From: a virus
Direction: 5' to 3' (one strand)
IMG/VR virus record: IMGVR_UViG_3300046466_000125
Location: 1 to 49,958 of that record
Length of the DNA: 49,958 nucleotides
Made by a program: the position numbers and the translations under genes. Position 1 is the stretch's first letter, and every line of letters starts with the position of its first letter. Positions 31,922-47,364 of the stretch are shown one piece after another. The notes beneath the pieces were generated by a model, which saw only the letters and a program-made list of their open reading frames with translations, ran no database searches and had not been told where the DNA came from.

Positions 31922-32671
31922 ATGAACCAAGTAGCAACAAAAACAGAAGGAGTATTGGCAACATTTGATATGGAAGCTGATGCTAACAAAGGTACTCAAA
32001 ACATTGCGCAGGAAGATCTTGCGTTACCCTTCTTGAAAGTTTTGGGACAGCTATCTCCAGAGGTAAACAAAAGAGATGGTAAATATGTCGAGGGCGCAGA
32101 ACCCGGCAAAATAATAAATACTGTTACCAATGAACTGTATGATATGTTGACTGTTGTCCCATGTCATTACAAAAGAAAGTACATTGAATGGCAAGATAGA
32201 GGTACCAGCACTGGTGCACCTGTTGCAATTCATGAGGCAGACAGTGATATAATTAGTCAAACGACTAGAGGTAAAGATTATAAAGATAGACTACCTAATG
32301 GTAACTATCTTGAAAATACTGCCGATCACTTTGTACTTGTAACTGGTAATAGTCCATCAACAGCTTTGATTTCTATGAAAGCTACTCAACTTAAAGTTAG
32401 TAGAAAATGGAACTCAATGATGATGGGTATCAAAATGCAGGGTAAAAATGGACTTTTTACTCCGCCAACATATAGTCACATTTATAATCTAAAGACCGTA
32501 CAGATGTCTAACGACAAAGGTACATGGTTTGGTTGGGATGTAGAAAAAGTTGGTCCTGTCGAAGATAAATCTATCTACGATATGGCTAAACGTTTTGCAG
32601 AACAAGTAGGTAAAGGTGAGATTGAGGCGAAGCATGGTAATAACGAGGCAGACTCGAAACAACCATACTAA
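31922..32671 (+). CDS. Possible ssDNA-binding replication protein
   Basis: A 249-aa protein. The segment EDLALPFLKVLGQLSPEVNK (residues 30-49) and the following beta-rich core (GKIINTVTNELYDMLTVVPC, YKRKYIEWQDRG, SHIYNLKTVQMSNDKGTWFG) match a family I recall in environmental phages next to primases and helicases. The C-terminal 30 residues are charged. An OB-like ssDNA-binding role is plausible from fold style and operon, but no diagnostic residue is visible. It is followed by a strong hairpin before the primase gene. Confidence 0.5.
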   Translation: MNQVATKTEGVLATFDMEADANKGTQNIAQEDLALPFLKVLGQLSPEVNKRDGKYVEGAEPGKIINTVTNELYDMLTVVPCHYKRKYIEWQDRGTSTGAPVAIHEADSDIISQTTRGKDYKDRLPNGNYLENTADHFVLVTGNSPSTALISMKATQLKVSRKWNSMMMGIKMQGKNGLFTPPTYSHIYNLKTVQMSNDKGTWFGWDVEKVGPVEDKSIYDMAKRFAEQVGKGEIEAKHGNNEADSKQPY

Positions 32672-32725: not shown

Positions 32726-34222
32726 ATGATTGAAAAATTTAAACATATATTCTCAGGATTAGAACGTGCTCATGGTGTCACTAAAGTTGGTGAATCAAAC
32801 GGTAATGGCACAAAAGTAAAAGGTAAATCTTTTGTTAAAAGAGAACCAGTCACTGATTTACTTTGGCAACAACATTTAGAAGGTATAGAAAGTTTAGGTG
32901 TAATACCTATTGATGATAACAATACTTGTAAATGGGGTTGTATAGATATTGATTCGTACGCAGGTTTTGATCACAAACAATTAATAGATAAAATAAATTT
33001 TTTAAAACTACCACTAATAGTATTCAGATCTAAATCAGGTGGTGCACATGTATTTTTATTTACAGAAGAACCTGTAAGTGCAAAATCAATGCAAGATAAA
33101 TTAACTCAAATAAAAGCTGTATTGGGTTATGGTGGATCAGAAGTTTTTCCGAAACAAACAGAATTAAAATCGCAAGATGATACAGGAAATTTTTTAAACT
33201 TACCATATTTTAATGGTAATAATTCTACAAGATATGCCTTTAATGATAAAGGTGATGCTGTTAATATAGATGCTTTTTATTTATTGTATGAAAATAAAAA
33301 ACAAAAAGATGTTGACACTATAAATGTAGAAAGACCTAAATCAGAATATAACGATGCACCGCCTTGTATAGAAACTCTTGCATTAAATAAAATAGGAGAA
33401 GGTGGTAGAAATAATGCTTTGTTTCATTATGGAACTTACGCAAAATCTAAATGGCCTAGTAATTGGAAATCAAAAATAATTATGTTTAATGCAACAGCAA
33501 TGGAACAACCATTGTCTGATTCAGAAGTACAGATCATAGTAAATCAACACGATAAAAAAGAATGGGGTTATAAATGTAAAGATGAACCTATGTGTAGTAT
33601 GTGTGATAAAACTTTATGTCGAACTAGGAAATATGGTATCGGCCAGGAGATTATGTTTCCTGGGCTAACCGACCTCCAGGTTATAGACTTGGAGGACCCT
33701 TACTACTACCTAAACGTAGATGGAGAAAGATTATACTTAGAGAATGTTAAATACTTACGACAACAAAGTTTATTTCAAGAAGCATGTATGAAACAATTAA
33801 GATTTAGACCACCAACATTAAAAGAAAAAGATTGGGTGGTTATTACAAATTTATTATTAAACAACGCAGAAGTAACAGAACCAGCACAAGGTATGCGTAC
33901 AGAAGATCAACTCCAAAATCATTTAGAAGAATTTTGTCTTAACAGACAAGTATCAACAGATAAGAACGATCTTAAAAAAGGTGGTGTATGGACAGCAGAA
34001 GGATCTCATCATTTTGTATTCGATAGATTCTATCATCAGTTTTTAATAAGACGTAGATGGGATGTAGGCTATCAAAGAACAGGTCAGATGTTGAAAGAAA
34101 AATGTGGTTGTGAAGATAAAAGATTAGGTAAAGAAAAAATATCTGTATTTACGGTAAAAGAATTTGACAAAAAGAAAGATTCTTACAACGAGAAAATATT
34201 AAAAGAGGAGGACCCATATTGA
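32726..34222 (+). CDS. Archaeo-eukaryotic-type primase (TOTE/AEP-like)
   Basis: A 498-aa protein. The N-terminus SGLERAHG and the pair CIDID (Asp74, Asp76) with SGGAHVFLF (His108) form the catalytic pattern of archaeo-eukaryotic primases: an acidic metal pair, then an sxH motif. A KQTELKSQDDTGNFLNLPYF segment follows. Around residues 215-300 is a PriCT-like region (GEGGRNNALFHYGTYAKSKW) ending in a cysteine cluster (CKDEPMCSMCDKTLC) that may bind zinc. No helicase domain is fused. It should make primers for the polymerase downstream. There is no clear ribosome binding site. Confidence 0.72.
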   Translation: MIEKFKHIFSGLERAHGVTKVGESNGNGTKVKGKSFVKREPVTDLLWQQHLEGIESLGVIPIDDNNTCKWGCIDIDSYAGFDHKQLIDKINFLKLPLIVFRSKSGGAHVFLFTEEPVSAKSMQDKLTQIKAVLGYGGSEVFPKQTELKSQDDTGNFLNLPYFNGNNSTRYAFNDKGDAVNIDAFYLLYENKKQKDVDTINVERPKSEYNDAPPCIETLALNKIGEGGRNNALFHYGTYAKSKWPSNWKSKIIMFNATAMEQPLSDSEVQIIVNQHDKKEWGYKCKDEPMCSMCDKTLCRTRKYGIGQEIMFPGLTDLQVIDLEDPYYYLNVDGERLYLENVKYLRQQSLFQEACMKQLRFRPPTLKEKDWVVITNLLLNNAEVTEPAQGMRTEDQLQNHLEEFCLNRQVSTDKNDLKKGGVWTAEGSHHFVFDRFYHQFLIRRRWDVGYQRTGQMLKEKCGCEDKRLGKEKISVFTVKEFDKKKDSYNEKILKEEDPY

Positions 34223-34293
34223 TTGCTAGAATGGATTTATTAGCAATTACAATGTTTACTGCATTGTGGATATACTTACACTTAGGAATATGA
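34219..34293 (+). CDS. Transmembrane microprotein between primase and helicase
   Basis: A 24-aa frame with a TTG start preceded by GAGGAGG (34205-34211), eight bases upstream, which is the strongest Shine-Dalgarno nearby. It starts inside the primase stop. The protein is a single hydrophobic helix (MDLLAITMFTALWIYLHLGI). If the TTG is not used, ATG 34231 gives 20 residues. It may be a membrane anchor or coupling peptide; function unknown. Confidence 0.45.
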   Translation: MIARMDLLAITMFTALWIYLHLGI

Positions 34294-35777
34294 AAACAAT
34301 TGTACTAGGACCACCAGGAACAGGAAAAACAACTACGTTGTTGAATAAAGTAGATGACTATCTAAAACAAACAGATCCAGACAAAGTAGGATACTTTGCA
34401 TTTACACAGAAAGCTGCATACGAAGCAAGAGACAGAGCAATTAAAAAATTTAATCTTACAGAAGATGATCTTCCATATTTTAGAACACTACACTCACTAG
34501 CATTTAGAAAACTAGGATTAAAAAAAGATAACGTAATGCAGAGAAGACACTATGTTGATCTAGGAAAAAAACTTGGTTTTCCAGTAAACTATGCAAAGTA
34601 TGAAGATGACCATGGTGGTATTTTTACATCTGATAGTGAGTATTTAAGAATAATAAATTTATCAAAACTTAGAAATATTACACCAGAACAACAATTTGAT
34701 TTAGCTGAACATAATCAAGATTTAGAAAGAGATAAGCTACGTATTATATCTAATGAGATTGAAAGATATAAAAAAGAATATGGTCTTATAGATTTTAATG
34801 ACATGATATTAGAGTTTATAAAATCAGATAAGTCACCAAAGTTTGATGTTGTATTTATAGATGAAGCACAAGATCTATCTCTTATGCAATGGGATATGGC
34901 AAAAACTATTTGGAATAAAACAGAAGATTCTTTTATAGCAGGTGATGATGACCAAGCTATATTTAGATGGGCTGGTGCAGATGTAGATTCTTTTATAGCA
35001 CAAAAAGGTTTGATGATGCCATTAACACAATCACACAGAATACCTGCAAAAGTACACAATGTTGCAATGAATATAATAAATAAAATTAAAAACAGAATAG
35101 ATAAAACATGGAAACCAAAAGTACATGAAGGATTATTATCTAACTACGATGACTTTGAACAAATAGATATGTCATCAGGAGAATGGTTGGTGTTAGCCAG
35201 AACTAAATACATGTTAAATGAATTAGAAGAAACATTATATCGTAATGGGTATTACTATAAAAATAGATTTAAAAAAACTAAAGAACAAGAATTACACAAT
35301 GCAGCTGTTGATTGGGAAAATTTACGTAAAGGTCAACCAATGTCATACAAACAAATAGAAAGAATATATAGTTATATGTCTAATAATTGCGACAAGACTA
35401 AATTAAAAGGTATGTTGAAAGAAAGCTATCATGACTTTGAAATATTAAAACAAAGTTATGGTTTAAAAACTAACACTGTTTGGTTTGAAGCTTTTGATGA
35501 TGCACCTAGTAGAGACATAAATTATTTACGTCAAATGAGAAAGAATGGAGAAAAGCTAAACGAAAGACCAAGAATAACATTATCAACTATTCATGGAGCT
35601 AAAGGTGGTGAAGCACAAAACGTAGTGCTGCTTACAGATTTAAGTGAGAACACTATGAAAGCTTATGAAAGAAATGCTGATGATGAGAATAGATTGTTCT
35701 ATGTTGGTGCAACACGGACCAAGGAACATCTACATATAATATCACCAAAACAAGAATACAAAGGATATAAACTATGA
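34290..35777 (+). CDS. UvrD/Rep-like SF1 helicase
   Basis: A 495-aa helicase. The Walker A is GPPGTGKTTT (residues 7-16). Motif II is FIDEAQDLS, motif III is GDDDQAIFRWAGAD, motif V contains STIHGAKGGEAQNVVLLTD, and motif VI is ENRLFYVGATRTKEHL. All core SF1A motifs are intact. I chose ATG 34290 because the upstream GTG lies inside the microprotein frame and the true start has TAGGA close by. It follows the primase and precedes the polymerase, and could act as the replicative or repair helicase. It is short for UvrD, consistent with phage versions. Confidence 0.85.
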   Translation: MKTIVLGPPGTGKTTTLLNKVDDYLKQTDPDKVGYFAFTQKAAYEARDRAIKKFNLTEDDLPYFRTLHSLAFRKLGLKKDNVMQRRHYVDLGKKLGFPVNYAKYEDDHGGIFTSDSEYLRIINLSKLRNITPEQQFDLAEHNQDLERDKLRIISNEIERYKKEYGLIDFNDMILEFIKSDKSPKFDVVFIDEAQDLSLMQWDMAKTIWNKTEDSFIAGDDDQAIFRWAGADVDSFIAQKGLMMPLTQSHRIPAKVHNVAMNIINKIKNRIDKTWKPKVHEGLLSNYDDFEQIDMSSGEWLVLARTKYMLNELEETLYRNGYYYKNRFKKTKEQELHNAAVDWENLRKGQPMSYKQIERIYSYMSNNCDKTKLKGMLKESYHDFEILKQSYGLKTNTVWFEAFDDAPSRDINYLRQMRKNGEKLNERPRITLSTIHGAKGGEAQNVVLLTDLSENTMKAYERNADDENRLFYVGATRTKEHLHIISPKQEYKGYKL

Positions 35778-35983
35778 GTAAAGTATGGGACAAGCAGCAC
35801 GGCGGGAGTCACTACCAAAAATATAAAATTCAACCAAGCAAGTTTGTAGTAGAGAATGAATTGCTATACCCTGAAGGTTGTGCTATAAAATATATTATAA
35901 GACATAGAGATAAGGGAAAGAAACAAGATTTATTGAAAGCAATACACTTTATAGAAATGATTATAGAAAGGGATTACAAATGA
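35774..35983 (+). CDS. DUF3310-like protein
   Basis: A 69-aa protein with the DUF3310 pattern: SHYQKYKIQPSKFVVEN, then LYPEGCAIKYIIRHRDKGKK and DLLKAIHFIEMII. The family is common in phages, often near nucleotide metabolism or replication genes, and its biochemical role is uncertain. It overlaps the helicase stop by four bases and the polymerase start by four bases, so the three are co-translated. Confidence 0.78.
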   Translation: MSKVWDKQHGGSHYQKYKIQPSKFVVENELLYPEGCAIKYIIRHRDKGKKQDLLKAIHFIEMIIERDYK

Positions 35984-37833
35984 TACAGAAACCTATGTTT
36001 AGTCCACAAGTAGAATGGACACCACCTGAAACATTTCCTGATCTATCAAAGTATGATGAGATTGCAATTGACTTAGAAACAAAAGACCCACAGTTAAAAC
36101 AAATGGGATCTGGCTCTGTAACAAACAGAGGAGAGATTGTTGGTATAGCTGTGGCAGTTGAAGGTTGGTCTGGATACTATCCTATTGCTCATGCTGGTGG
36201 TGGTAACATGGATAAGGCAAGAGTATTAAACTGGTTTAAAGATGTATTAAATACACCTGCTATTAAGATATTTCATAATGCTATGTATGATGTGTGCTGG
36301 ATTAGGTCTATTGGCCTTAAAATTAATGGTACTATTGTAGATACCATGATTGCTGGCTCTCTCGTAGACGAGAACAGGTATAGATACGATTTAGGCTCTA
36401 TGGGTCGAGATTACGTTGGAAAAGGCAAAAGTGAAGCTGTATTGAAGGAAACTGCTAACCTTTGGGGTATAGATGCTAAGTCTGAGATGTATAAATTGCC
36501 AGCGATGTATGTTGGCGAGTATGCTGAAAGAGATGCTGTTGTAACTTTAGATTTGTGGCAGAGAATGAAACAAGAAATACAACATCAAGATATACAATCT
36601 ATTTTTGATTTAGAGACAGAACTTTTTCCTTGCCTAGTCGATATGCGTTTTTTAGGTGTTCGAGTAAACTTAGAAGCAGCCAACGAATTAAAAAACAAAC
36701 TATCATCAGAAGAAAAAGAATGCCTACAAAAAGTAAAAATAGAAACAGGAGTAGATACTCAAATATGGGCTGCACGTTCCATTGCGCAAGTCTTTGAAAA
36801 ACTGCGCCTACCATTTGACCGAACTGAAAAAACAAATTCTCCATCATTTACTAAAAACTTTTTACAAAACCATCCTCACCCGACAGTAAAATTAATTGCT
36901 AGAGCTCGTGAAATAAATAAAGCTCATACAACATTTATTGATACCATAATAAAACATACACATAAAGGAAGAATTCATGCTGAAATAAATCAGTTAAGAT
37001 CTGATTCTGGAGGCACAGTTACTGGTAGATTTAGTTATTCAAATCCTAATCTACAACAGATTCCAGCTAGAAACAAAGAACTAGGACCAGCTATTAGATC
37101 ATTATTTATACCAGAAGAAGGTTGTACTTGGGGAGTTTTTGACTACTCACAACAAGAACCAAGATTAGTTGTGCATTACGCAGCTTTACAGAGTCTCTAT
37201 GGAGTGAACGATGTATTGGATGCCTACAATGATTCAAATGTAGACTTTCACCAGATCGTAGCAGACATGGCAGAGATACCTAGATCACAGGCCAAGACTA
37301 TAAACCTTGGTCTGTTCTATGGTATGGGTAAGAATAAACTACAAGCAGAGCTTGGTGTATCTAAAGACAAAGCTGATAATTTATTTAGACAGTATCATTC
37401 ACGTGTACCTTTTGTAAAACAACTTATGGATAACGTATCTTCTCGTGCTCAAAACAGAGGACAAATCCGTACATTGTTGGGACGTCTATGTAGGTTTCAT
37501 CTATGGGAACCTAATCAGTTTGGTATACATAAACCATTGCCTCATGCTGACGCGCTCACGGAACACGGACCAGGAATCAAGCGAGCTTATACATACAAAG
37601 CTTTAAATAGATTAATACAAGGATCAGCAGCTGACATGACAAAAAAAGCTATGATTGATTTGTACAAGGAAGGCATCACACCACATATACAAGTACATGA
37701 TGAACTTGATATATCTGTTGAAAATAGTTTAGAAGCGAATAAAATAAAAGATATTATGGAAGGTGCTGTTGAGTTAGAGGTGCCTAACAAAGTAGACTAT
37801 GAATCTGGACCCAATTGGGGTACAATTAAATGA
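35980..37833 (+). CDS. Family A DNA polymerase with 3'-5' exonuclease
   Basis: A 617-aa replicative polymerase. The exonuclease domain has DLE (Asp31, Glu33), FHNAMYD (Asp104) and YAERD (Tyr181, Asp185), so proofreading residues are intact. Polymerase motif A is FDYSQQEPRLVVHY (Asp388), motif B is RSQAKTINLGLFYGMGKNKL (Lys439, Tyr447), and motif C is QVHDEL (Asp574, Glu575). The residue matching E. coli Phe762 is Leu443. There is no 5'-3' exonuclease domain, as usual for phage PolA. It should copy the phage genome together with the primase and helicases upstream. Confidence 0.93.
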   Translation: MIQKPMFSPQVEWTPPETFPDLSKYDEIAIDLETKDPQLKQMGSGSVTNRGEIVGIAVAVEGWSGYYPIAHAGGGNMDKARVLNWFKDVLNTPAIKIFHNAMYDVCWIRSIGLKINGTIVDTMIAGSLVDENRYRYDLGSMGRDYVGKGKSEAVLKETANLWGIDAKSEMYKLPAMYVGEYAERDAVVTLDLWQRMKQEIQHQDIQSIFDLETELFPCLVDMRFLGVRVNLEAANELKNKLSSEEKECLQKVKIETGVDTQIWAARSIAQVFEKLRLPFDRTEKTNSPSFTKNFLQNHPHPTVKLIARAREINKAHTTFIDTIIKHTHKGRIHAEINQLRSDSGGTVTGRFSYSNPNLQQIPARNKELGPAIRSLFIPEEGCTWGVFDYSQQEPRLVVHYAALQSLYGVNDVLDAYNDSNVDFHQIVADMAEIPRSQAKTINLGLFYGMGKNKLQAELGVSKDKADNLFRQYHSRVPFVKQLMDNVSSRAQNRGQIRTLLGRLCRFHLWEPNQFGIHKPLPHADALTEHGPGIKRAYTYKALNRLIQGSAADMTKKAMIDLYKEGITPHIQVHDELDISVENSLEANKIKDIMEGAVELEVPNKVDYESGPNWGTIK

Positions 37834-38490: not shown

Positions 38491-38663
38491 GTTTAAATTT
38501 ATGTGATTTTTGTGGACACCCACACAGAGGAGCAATTTTATGTCCAATTGATGGATGTGACTGTAATTTAGAACCTTTAATAATAACGGAGGATAAAATG
38601 TTTAAAAAAATTTGGAATAAAATAAAAAATTTTTCTAAAAGATTAATGTTTTGGACTAGATAA
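38487..38663 (+). CDS. Small zinc-finger-like protein with cationic tail
   Basis: A 58-aa protein. Residues 6-26 hold a cysteine/histidine cluster (CDFCGHPHRGAILCPIDGCD) that could bind zinc. The last 21 residues form a cationic amphipathic helix (MFKKIWNKIKNFSKRLMFWT). Inside the gene a perfect GGAGG (38588-38592) precedes an in-frame ATG at 38598, so the helix may also be made on its own. The stop overlaps the next start (TAATG). The function is unknown. Confidence 0.5.
   Translation: MSLNLCDFCGHPHRGAILCPIDGCDCNLEPLIITEDKMFKKIWNKIKNFSKRLMFWTR
38598..38663 (+). CDS. Possible internal-start cationic peptide
   Basis: An alternative 21-aa product of the same frame as the zinc-finger-like gene, started at ATG 38598 with GGAGG five bases upstream. 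It has seven Lys/Arg and four aromatic residues interleaved with Ile, Leu, Met and Trp, a pattern of membrane-interacting peptides. No direct proof of separate translation. Confidence 0.3.
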   Translation: MFKKIWNKIKNFSKRLMFWTR

Positions 38664-42620: not shown

Positions 42621-42693
42621 AGATCTAAAGTTTGATGGCTTTGATCCAGCAACATCAATAGTAAAATGGGTATTTACAAATGGCTCAGAGTAA
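42565..42693 (+). CDS. Small lipoprotein
   Basis: A 42-aa protein with a signal sequence (MRRVMMVLLMMVVLTSC) ending in a lipobox L-T-S-C (Cys17), followed by a short mature part (TKDLKFDGFDPATSIVKWVF). AAGGGGAG precedes the ATG. It should be lipid-anchored in an outer or inner membrane. Very short lipoproteins can be outer-membrane spanins, but no matching inner partner is clear nearby. It overlaps genes at both ends in other frames. Confidence 0.55.
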   Translation: MRRVMMVLLMMVVLTSCTKDLKFDGFDPATSIVKWVFTNGSE

Positions 42694-43384
42694 TATTTCA
42701 AAAGAAAAAGATTTTAGAACTAAAGTTTTAAAATATTTTGTCGATGGTAAACCTACTCTTAAATATAGAGAGATAGCTAAACTAGCCGGCTGTTCTCTTG
42801 GAATGGTAAGTTATTACAAAGATCCTGAACGAGCTATACAAAGAATAAACGAAAACTCTGGTAGAACTAAATGGCACAAAGTATGGGCCTATCTATTTAG
42901 ACCTAGAGGAAAAAAACAAATAAAAGAGGAGACGTTTACAACTTTATTACGTAAGAAAGGTAGAGCTTTTCTATATGGTTGTAAGCGGTATCCAGAAGGA
43001 GAAACATACATGTCAAATAAAGAAAAACTACAACACAAAGGAATCGCGGTCAAAGATTGTTTGAATGAAATCTGGCCTGGAATAGAAGTTAACGAGAAGA
43101 CACCAGTACAATCATTACACCCACATACTAAAGAATGGGATTTTTATGCGGATGGTAAACCCATCATGTCTCCACATACACGATCAGCTATCACTGGAAA
43201 TGTTATAAATGCTAAAAGTAATTATACTGAAGTAGATCATAGAGATAGTGATAGAACTAACAATCATCCAAGTAACTTTTCTTTTGCTGAAAGATATGCT
43301 AATGCTATGAAAGGTGAGTTAACTTATAGAGAATTATATGAACGAGTATGTAGAGTTAAGGAGTTTTTAGAAAAATATGTCTAA
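42680..43384 (+). CDS. HNH-like endonuclease with N-terminal HTH
   Basis: A 234-aa protein. Residues 26-58 look like a helix-turn-helix (KYREIAKLAGCSLGMVSYY). Near the C-terminus, VDHRDSDRTNNHPSN (Asp186, His187, Asn194, Asn199) matches an HNH motif, the DH...N...H...N pattern, followed by a helical NAMKGELTYRELYERV. I recall close relatives annotated as endonucleases in SAR11-type phages. It could be a free-standing homing or replication-associated nuclease. It overlaps the lipoprotein by 14 bases. Confidence 0.6.
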   Translation: MAQSNISKEKDFRTKVLKYFVDGKPTLKYREIAKLAGCSLGMVSYYKDPERAIQRINENSGRTKWHKVWAYLFRPRGKKQIKEETFTTLLRKKGRAFLYGCKRYPEGETYMSNKEKLQHKGIAVKDCLNEIWPGIEVNEKTPVQSLHPHTKEWDFYADGKPIMSPHTRSAITGNVINAKSNYTEVDHRDSDRTNNHPSNFSFAERYANAMKGELTYRELYERVCRVKEFLEKYV

Positions 43385-44564: not shown

Positions 44565-44785
44565 ATGACAACATTAGAAAGGTTCTAAACTACAGATACA
44601 ATGCAGAGATAGAAGACGCAAAGTACAAGATCAAATGTTATAGTGAGCAAGAACTAATTATACCCGAACACCCAGATATTACAGGTGAGATAGACAAATT
44701 ACTTGAAAAAATTGCCCAGGCCGAAGAAAAGATGGCAGTAATAGAGCTACATTATGGCCAAAAAGAGGCAAAGAACATACTATAA
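44561..44785 (+). CDS. Hypothetical coiled-coil protein
   Basis: A 74-aa charged, helical protein (NDNIRKVLNYRYNAEIEDAK, then GEIDKLLEKIAQAEEKMAVI). I chose ATG 44561 with GAGGAGG seven bases upstream rather than the ATG at 44510 inside the preceding frame. Ends at the left arm of a large inverted repeat. No domain recognised; the helical heptads suggest oligomerisation. Confidence 0.5.
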   Translation: MNDNIRKVLNYRYNAEIEDAKYKIKCYSEQELIIPEHPDITGEIDKLLEKIAQAEEKMAVIELHYGQKEAKNIL

Positions 44786-45018
44786 GGGATCTGAAAAGTT
44801 TTAAAAATTTTTTAGAAAAAAAATCAGCAAAAAAAAGTGTACTTTTGTACTTTTGGCTTAAAAGTGTTGGTATTACTAGCTTTAGGGTGGACACTTTTAG
44901 GGACACTTTTTGTTTAGGTGGACAGAAAATAATGTCCACCTATGGGTATATACAAAAAGGCCTTCCGCGAAAGGTTTCAGTTTTGTCTCGTTAGTTCAAA
45001 ACTTTCTAGATCCCTTAT
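44782..45018. other. Inverted-repeat-bounded structured region (candidate RNA or origin)
   Basis: A gene-free 237-base element. Ends 44782-44802 and 44998-45018 are inverted copies over 21 bases with two differences; in RNA one is a G-U pair and one a mismatch. Inside are TAGGTGGACA/TGTCCACCTA (44925-44934 with 44943-44952), TAAAAGTGT/ACACTTTTA (about 44861-44899), a small CCTT/AAGG hairpin near 44970, several ACTTTT or ACACTTTT direct copies and an A/T-rich run. The set would suit a long structured RNA, a terminator array or an AT-rich origin. Nothing identifies which. Confidence 0.5.
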
Positions 45019-45039
45019 GTAAATATGATAGAAGAGATT

Positions 45040-45327
45040 ATGCCTAGGAAAAGACGAAAAAGAATTGCAACTGAAAGTGCTCCCGAGATACCTTATCCGA
45101 GAGTCAGAGTGGAGTGGATTGATTGTGTCAGTGACTCTGGCTGGGCTACTGATAAAGAGTTTGATAAGATGAAGTTAGCAAGACCGGTCAATGAAGGTTG
45201 GTTATATTCTAAAGATGATAAGTCTATAAAACTATTTGCGTCTTACGATAAAGATGAAGATGGAATTACTTTTGGGGATCGGACGATGATTCCTCGTCAG
45301 TGGGTAAAGAAGATTCAGAAACTTTAG
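45040..45327 (+). CDS. Conserved hypothetical protein
   Basis: A 95-aa protein with a basic start (MPRKRRKRIATESAPEIPYP) and a compact alpha/beta body (VRVEWIDCVSDSGWATDKEF, YSKDDKSIKLFASYDKDEDG, RTMIPRQWVKKI). I chose ATG 45040, preceded by AGAAGAG; an in-frame ATG at 45025 would add five residues. I recall relatives in SAR11-type phages. It overlaps the convergent small terminase gene by 62 bases at the 3' end. Function unknown. Confidence 0.55.
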   Translation: MPRKRRKRIATESAPEIPYPRVRVEWIDCVSDSGWATDKEFDKMKLARPVNEGWLYSKDDKSIKLFASYDKDEDGITFGDRTMIPRQWVKKIQKL

Positions 45328-46761: not shown

Positions 46762-47364
46762 TTAATGTTTTCCATAACTAACAGTTTTGATTGAGGCGTC
46801 CCAGCATTGTCTGCAGTCTCTGCACTCATTGTTTTGTTTAGGGGCCGGGCAGCTGGCGTTGCTGTTAACAACCTCCGAACTGTTAGGCCACGAAGCAGGC
46901 GCCCGCTGGTCAACCATGGGCGCGCTAAATCGTATGACTAAATTGTCAGGCTTGCCATCGAGGTGATCTTTGATCCAAGCTTCTCGAGTTGGCATCCAAT
47001 GCTTTTTTGTAGGTGTTAATCTACAGACTTCATAAATTTTGTTTAAATGATCTAGATCTTGAACGTCGCCGCTGTCGTGCCATCTAAAAACATCCGGCTT
47101 TTTACTGTTGATCAGGTGAGCCATTGCCTGGACCCAGTCCGAGCTCTTCAACGCTTCCAGCCTTCGATACTGTGCGTCCTGAACAACCTTGAAGACATAA
47201 CAGCCCTTGAGCGCATAACAGTCGAAGCATACGCTGCCCGGGACCTTCTGAAGCTTGCCGCCGGTCTTGCATTCTTTGGCAGGTAAACCTATCGACCAGC
47301 CAGGCATCTTTGACGGTTTGCTTAGGCTGCCTCCTATAATTTTTAATGCTTCATCTGTTTTCAT
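46762..47364 (-). CDS. GP88-like protein (minus strand)
   Basis: A 200-aa protein resembling, as I recall, the mycobacteriophage gene 88 family: KMPGWSIGLPAKECKTGGKL, then GSVCFDCYALKGCY and VFRWHDSGDVQDLDHLNKIY. It has a dense cysteine pattern, including a C-terminal cluster (SCPAPKQNNECRDCRQC), suggesting metal binding. It is GC-richer than its neighbours and is flanked by heptamer arrays on both sides, consistent with a horizontally acquired cassette. It has AAGGAG before the ATG and a promoter at 47385-47413. The biochemical role of the family is unknown. Confidence 0.6.
   Translation of the reverse strand: MKTDEALKIIGGSLSKPSKMPGWSIGLPAKECKTGGKLQKVPGSVCFDCYALKGCYVFKVVQDAQYRRLEALKSSDWVQAMAHLINSKKPDVFRWHDSGDVQDLDHLNKIYEVCRLTPTKKHWMPTREAWIKDHLDGKPDNLVIRFSAPMVDQRAPASWPNSSEVVNSNASCPAPKQNNECRDCRQCWDASIKTVSYGKH

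Follow-up and report, generated by a model that had tools for sequence, protein, structure and literature searches.

The DNA analyzed here ("the window") is a 49,958-base virus record, taken at its full length, from an HTVC027P-related pelagiphage. Pelagiphages of the HTVC023P/HTVC027P type have been described as widespread and as ranking with the most abundant in nature (PMC9599517). Pelagibacter phage HTVC027P was the sole DNA relative of the window in the phage collection searched; its gene order around the locus described below resembles that of the window, and its annotation lists a primase, an ATP-dependent helicase and DNA polymerase A in the same order. At this locus, an intergenic gap separates a 91-aa ORF, whose stop codon lies at 44783-44785, from a 100-aa gene that is followed by the small terminase (TerS) gene on the minus strand. 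A first-pass annotation had set the limits of the gap at 44782-45018, and both limits needed adjustment. The left arm of the inverted repeat described below starts inside the upstream stop codon. Because many relatives match the 100-aa protein only from residue 6, its second Met, we moved the start of this gene from 45025 to 45040, where an ATG behind AGAAGAG is probably the true start. The gap therefore spans ~44786-45039 (Table 1). Among other genes of the region, a GP88-family gene (Pfam PF17338, 5e-26) lies at 46762-47364 on the minus strand, and this family occurs in most of the longer relatives. HNH-type or neighboring families are found at 42680-43384 in the window and ~2-2.6 kb upstream of the gap in relatives; they lie near the proposed origin in 27/30 and 22/30 deduplicated contigs.

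The gap is bounded by two outer arms that are reverse complements over 21 bases with exactly two differences, and a repeat search extends the match to 24 nt at 88% complementarity. The arms score 16.5 against a mean of 7.4 in dinucleotide shuffles of both flanks (p = 0.005, the lowest value possible with 200 shuffles). The first-pass annotation had described this repeat as too good for chance, and its coordinates, its count of differences and that judgment all held. The inner hairpins of 9-10 bp that it had mentioned were located as a perfect 10-bp inverted repeat (44915-44924/44933-44942) and a 9-bp inverted repeat (44859-44867/44891-44899), and the ACACTTTT repeats that it had listed are present as well. 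In addition, GGACACTTTT occurs twice, at 44889 and 44901, 12 bp apart. Repeated 7-mers number 23 in the gap compared to 5.2 in shuffles (p = 0.005). The stretch at ~44795-44840 is among the most A+T-rich of the window: its best 40 bases hold 35 A or T, a richness equaled by 0.18% of the window's 40-base stretches. In four relatives, a GC in the 10-bp word hairpin has changed to TA on both sides together.

Table 1. Features of the proposed replication origin and of the replication genes in the window
Feature	Position	Strand	Basis
AEP primase, proposed initiator	32726..34222	+	Pfam AEP-TOTE 7.6e-15; PHROG primase; structural model; covaries with the gap
SF1 (UvrD-like) DNA helicase	34266..35777	+	Pfam/PHROG; covaries with the gap
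Family A DNA polymerase (PolA)	35980..37833	+	Pfam/PHROG; covaries with the gap
Whole gap, proposed origin of replication	44786..45039	+	Covariation with primase, helicase and PolA; repeated-word excess
Left outer arm, overlapping the stop codon of the 91-aa ORF	44782..44802	+	2 differences in 21 bases versus the right arm
A+T-rich tract, candidate melting region	44795..44835	.	Base composition; melting predicted
Left words GTGTAC and TTGTAC, 8 bp apart	44837..44850	-	44841-44842 co-change with the right-hand words in relatives
Core TAAAAGTGTTGGTAT	44859..44873	+	Window matches 15/15 positions; most classes have the core, some on the opposite strand
Word GGTGGACA	44886..44893	+	Repeated-word reading of the gap
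Word GGGACA, 12 bp from the preceding GGACA	44900..44905	+	Repeat search
Word hairpin TAGGTGGACA-N8-TGTCCACCTA	44915..44942	.	Perfect 10-bp arms; double change in relatives
GC-rich element GCCTTCCGCGAAAGG	44960..44974	.	Read from the sequence; GCGCGCG-like in many relatives
Right outer arm	44998..45018	-	Pairs with the left arm; shuffle comparison

Scans with three neighboring proteins returned 236 loci with 154 distinct gaps. Their place and much of their layout are kept, including the core, words in both orientations at approximately whole helical turns and probably the A+T-rich tract, and the word itself is replaced between classes, reading GGTGGACA/GGTACA, TGACA, GGTGTCG/GGTATCG, GCGAGGGG, GGGTTCG or TGGAAC. 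The 154 gaps divide into GGTGGAC/GTACA (71), TGTCGA/TATCG (31), TGACA (23), CGAGGG/CGAAGG (12), TGGAAC (9) and GGGTTCG (8), with labels taken from word lists drawn up after the sequences had been read and with soft class edges. In 69 of 76 non-redundant gaps, repeated 7-mers are more numerous than in shuffles. The repeat spacings peak at 8-9, 11-12, 18-22 and 30-33 bp, and few fall at 13-17, 23-26 or 34-39 bp, as expected if the sites share one helical face. A short word is thus present in several copies in phase, as in an iteron-type origin. The long class-specific words hardly occur elsewhere in the contig; shorter words of the window's class (class A), such as GTGGACA and GGTACAC, occur in genes too. 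Matches to the core average 13.1-14.2 by class versus 10.9-11.3 in shuffles, except in the TGGAAC class, where the match was not clearly above shuffles. In the window's class and the TGACA class the core lies on the plus strand, whereas the TGTCGA and GGGTTCG classes have it on the minus strand.

Conservation of the outer arms as a pair in relatives, one check on the first reading of the gap, gave a divided result. Arms paired beyond chance in 26/29 class-A gaps and 9/12 TGACA-class gaps, with several different arm sequences, and in only 7/37 gaps of the remaining classes. Since arm pairs go mostly undetected outside two classes, the words and not the arms are the defining feature. These arms, persisting in two classes with different sequences, could close a structured RNA such as a primer or a regulatory RNA, and the strand does fold at -71.6 kcal/mol versus -51.6 in shuffles (z -4.4). 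We nevertheless regard a structured RNA as very improbable. No Rfam family matched the gap at gathering score, and a tRNA search returned nothing. RNAalifold on 22 class-A gaps gave a covariation term of only 1.2, with double changes inside the words and not elsewhere. Arms went mostly undetected in the other classes, and pairing leaves unexplained the direct copies of the words at helical spacing. The first-pass annotation had suggested a folded RNA or an origin with iterons; little speaks for the RNA, and the helically phased words together with the covariation described below argue strongly for the origin.

Among named phages, 023Pt_psg01 has a non-coding stretch behind two small genes, on the same TerS side as in the window, that contains seven TGGCACA words together with a core match and a GCGCGCG element. 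The PolA of this phage is 64% identical to that of the window. This phage and HTVC027P probably represent two further recognition types. In HTVC023P (L542), a ~33-bp unit (AAATCTTGAGAATACATACCGAAAATTTTTTGC) is repeated ~3 times at ~735-830, directly before the homologue of the 100-aa gene, forming a different tandem repeat. In HTVC111P, Skadi-4, HTVC010P and HTVC115P, another gene immediately precedes the 100-aa homologue, and the annotation leaves no comparable gap.

Covariation of the words with phage genes was assessed in 34 longer contigs plus the window, with ORFs grouped into families. Protein identity was compared first with gap class and then, label-free, with the 6-mer similarity of the gaps in a Mantel test, which is independent of the hand-chosen class labels. 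After removal of near-duplicates, 31 families with at least 12 members remained, each tested with 1000 permutations. Only three of the 31 were strongly tracked by the gap, the primase (rho 0.68), the SF1 helicase (0.69) and PolA (0.71), all encoded 8-12 kb from it and each at p = 0.001, the minimum possible. These are partial contigs from the environment, sequences in IMG/VR are not independent samples, and shared ancestry is accounted for only in part by the Mantel test; the main control is the flat result for intervening genes. The next values were 0.27 for the gene at 38663 (p 0.025) and 0.24 for the gene at 31922 (p 0.10). A small family just downstream of TerS gave 0.17 (p 0.009), which is weak given 31 tests. 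The gap did not track the DUF3310 gene between helicase and PolA (35774-35983, rho 0.11), the gene right after PolA (-0.19), TerS (-0.10) or the 100-aa gene (-0.20), and neither the HNH genes upstream nor a 334-aa gene downstream of the gap covaried with the words. The flat results for the genes lying between helicase, PolA and gap mean that physical linkage is not the explanation. The word and its cognate primase-helicase-polymerase set covary across phage lineages, and the intervening genes do not follow.

The pattern recurred when the comparison was repeated on 23 genomes with other alignments and a narrower gap region. The ten genomes outside the window's superclade still gave significant covariation (p 0.0015-0.0045). 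In the 13 genomes of the superclade, where the proteins differ less, none of the three proteins was significantly tracked by word similarity. Similar words (GCGAGGGG, GCGAAGGT) are found in contigs G021 and G023 despite distant primases and helicases. For a held-out test, new loci were fetched with PolA of four types, and five new distinct contigs also held the gap; the other matches were contigs already used or a second copy. All five carried the words expected from their PolA type, with class judged by reading the printed sequence: GTGGACATTT and TGTCC words in the two with window-type PolA (80-81%), and CGACACC/GGGTGTCG words in the three with PolA of the C/F type (63-66%). In these three, identity of the 100-aa gene to the window's copy is only 38-45%.

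These results bear on two other readings of the gap. The TerS gene lies within 500 bp of the gap in nearly all relatives, as it might if the small terminase read a packaging (pac/cos) site there. Word similarity does not follow TerS, as its rho shows, and at locus L010 the 100-aa protein is identical and the TerS of the contig 99% identical, yet the words there are CGAGGGG; neighboring genes in general do not follow word class. We therefore give a packaging site almost no weight. The second reading is an operator-like regulatory array, bound by a replication protein or by a co-traveling regulator, that would not be a replication start. Phased intergenic words fit any multi-site DNA-binding protein, and the gap ends directly before a gene start. 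We consider such an array unlikely, since the covarying genes are DNA synthesis enzymes, PolA among them, no regulator family covaries among the 31 tested, and the long words are confined to one gap instead of preceding several operons. A scan for sigma-70-like sites and terminators likewise found no excess over shuffles.

The gap is very probably a replication start site, because its words change in step with the phage's DNA-copying enzymes and almost nothing else. On this sequence evidence, we propose with good confidence that it is the cis-acting iteron origin of the phage, cognate to its primase-helicase-polymerase module. GC skew, which had been suggested as a check, was uninformative: the window, HTVC027P and three long contigs have no consistent extremum at the gap. 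In the proposed mechanism, the repeated words (GGTGGACA/GGGACA on the right and GTGTAC/TTGTAC on the left), which stand about whole helical turns apart in both orientations around the conserved core, would serve as binding sites for a phage replication protein. The adjacent A+T-rich tract would melt, the AEP primase would make the first primer, and the SF1 helicase and PolA would carry synthesis away. The outer arms may also have a role in this process.

The likeliest reader of the words would be the primase, through its C-terminal domain and by analogy to ColE2 Rep. In an AlphaFold2 model of the primase (mean pLDDT 83.6), the AEP domain is followed by a C-terminal helix-strand-helix-helix-wing arrangement, a predicted winged-helix-like domain at residues ~390-480. 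When the whole model was compared with the PDB, the AEP domain aligned with CAPP Prim-Pol (Z 19.9) and residues 388-487 aligned with winged-helix proteins, among them ORC2 and AhrC; alignments with SaPI Rep and SCCmec Cch all had very high rmsd. Matches confined to residues ~388-487 reached only Z 5-7, and we therefore claim no family for this domain. Because a Z near 6 may reflect only a common arrangement, we infer, and do not assert, that the primase reads the words. Modeled in isolation, the C-terminal part gave a poor structure (pLDDT 62), and when primase and helicase were split into parts that were correlated with the words, neither was singled out as the reader. Where the words are of the TGTCG type (contigs with L264/L265, L271, L540), a protein of 480-499 aa occupies the primase slot, and the one in contig G015 gave neither a Pfam match nor BLAST similarity to the primase of the window. 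In contig G027 (L282-L284), the primase, ~10.7-12.2 kb upstream of the gap, is split into several ORFs by frameshifts or sequencing errors.

Several known replicons resemble the proposed system, and we treat the likenesses to ColE2, PLE and PICI as analogies, not as membership. ColE2 Rep, an AEP primase, binds the origin of its own replicon and makes the primer for Pol I (PMC4538821, PMC4980987). The mechanism proposed here would be similar, with an AEP primase that recognizes an origin of short repeats and primes a family A polymerase; the AEP domain is present in the window's primase, and origin binding is predicted. Unlike in ColE2-type replicons, the polymerase and an SF1 helicase are phage-encoded, and the proposed origin is more elaborate and lies 8-12 kb from the genes. 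In the PLE satellite, RepA and the origin vary together and are exchanged, perhaps under pressure from an origin-directed nuclease (PMC8263062). The two systems share iterons, an origin and initiator that would covary as a module across otherwise similar elements, and replacement of specificity; they differ in that the covarying set here consists of primase, helicase and polymerase and that the elements are whole phages. PICI/SaPI and SCCmec elements, with their Rep or Cch helicase, also combine iterons and an A+T-rich region with an element-encoded primase and helicase (PMC6092414, PMC7581432), and the modeled winged-helix-like domain of the window's primase is at least compatible with this arrangement. 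In contrast to these elements, the window's proposed origin is not directly behind a rep gene, its helicase is UvrD-like SF1 and its primase is AEP-TOTE. The scanned window proteins included no RepA_N-type initiator. In lambda, the origin is located within gene O, and a search of the families examined here gave no O-like protein. A study of Stx phages describes O-ori complexes, a case of a phage origin with iterons read by a phage protein, as would apply here (PMC7466680). A search of an open-access library retrieved no paper that, judged by title or abstract, deals with a pelagiphage replication origin.

A broader possibility, which we offer tentatively, is that these pelagiphages fall into replication-specificity groups. 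In such groups, a primase with its own DNA-reading domain would initiate replication, and word and initiator would be replaced as a pair, leaving the 8-12 kb of genes between them unaffected. This diversity might be driven by competition between coinfecting phages or satellites, or by their attack on each other's origins. The finding yields a testable candidate origin with a likely initiator and six recognition types or more, and provides a natural series in which to study changes in the specificity of replication initiators. Two distant loci covary while the intervening genes do not, and repeats without apparent kinship in close relatives can represent a single feature whose code changes.
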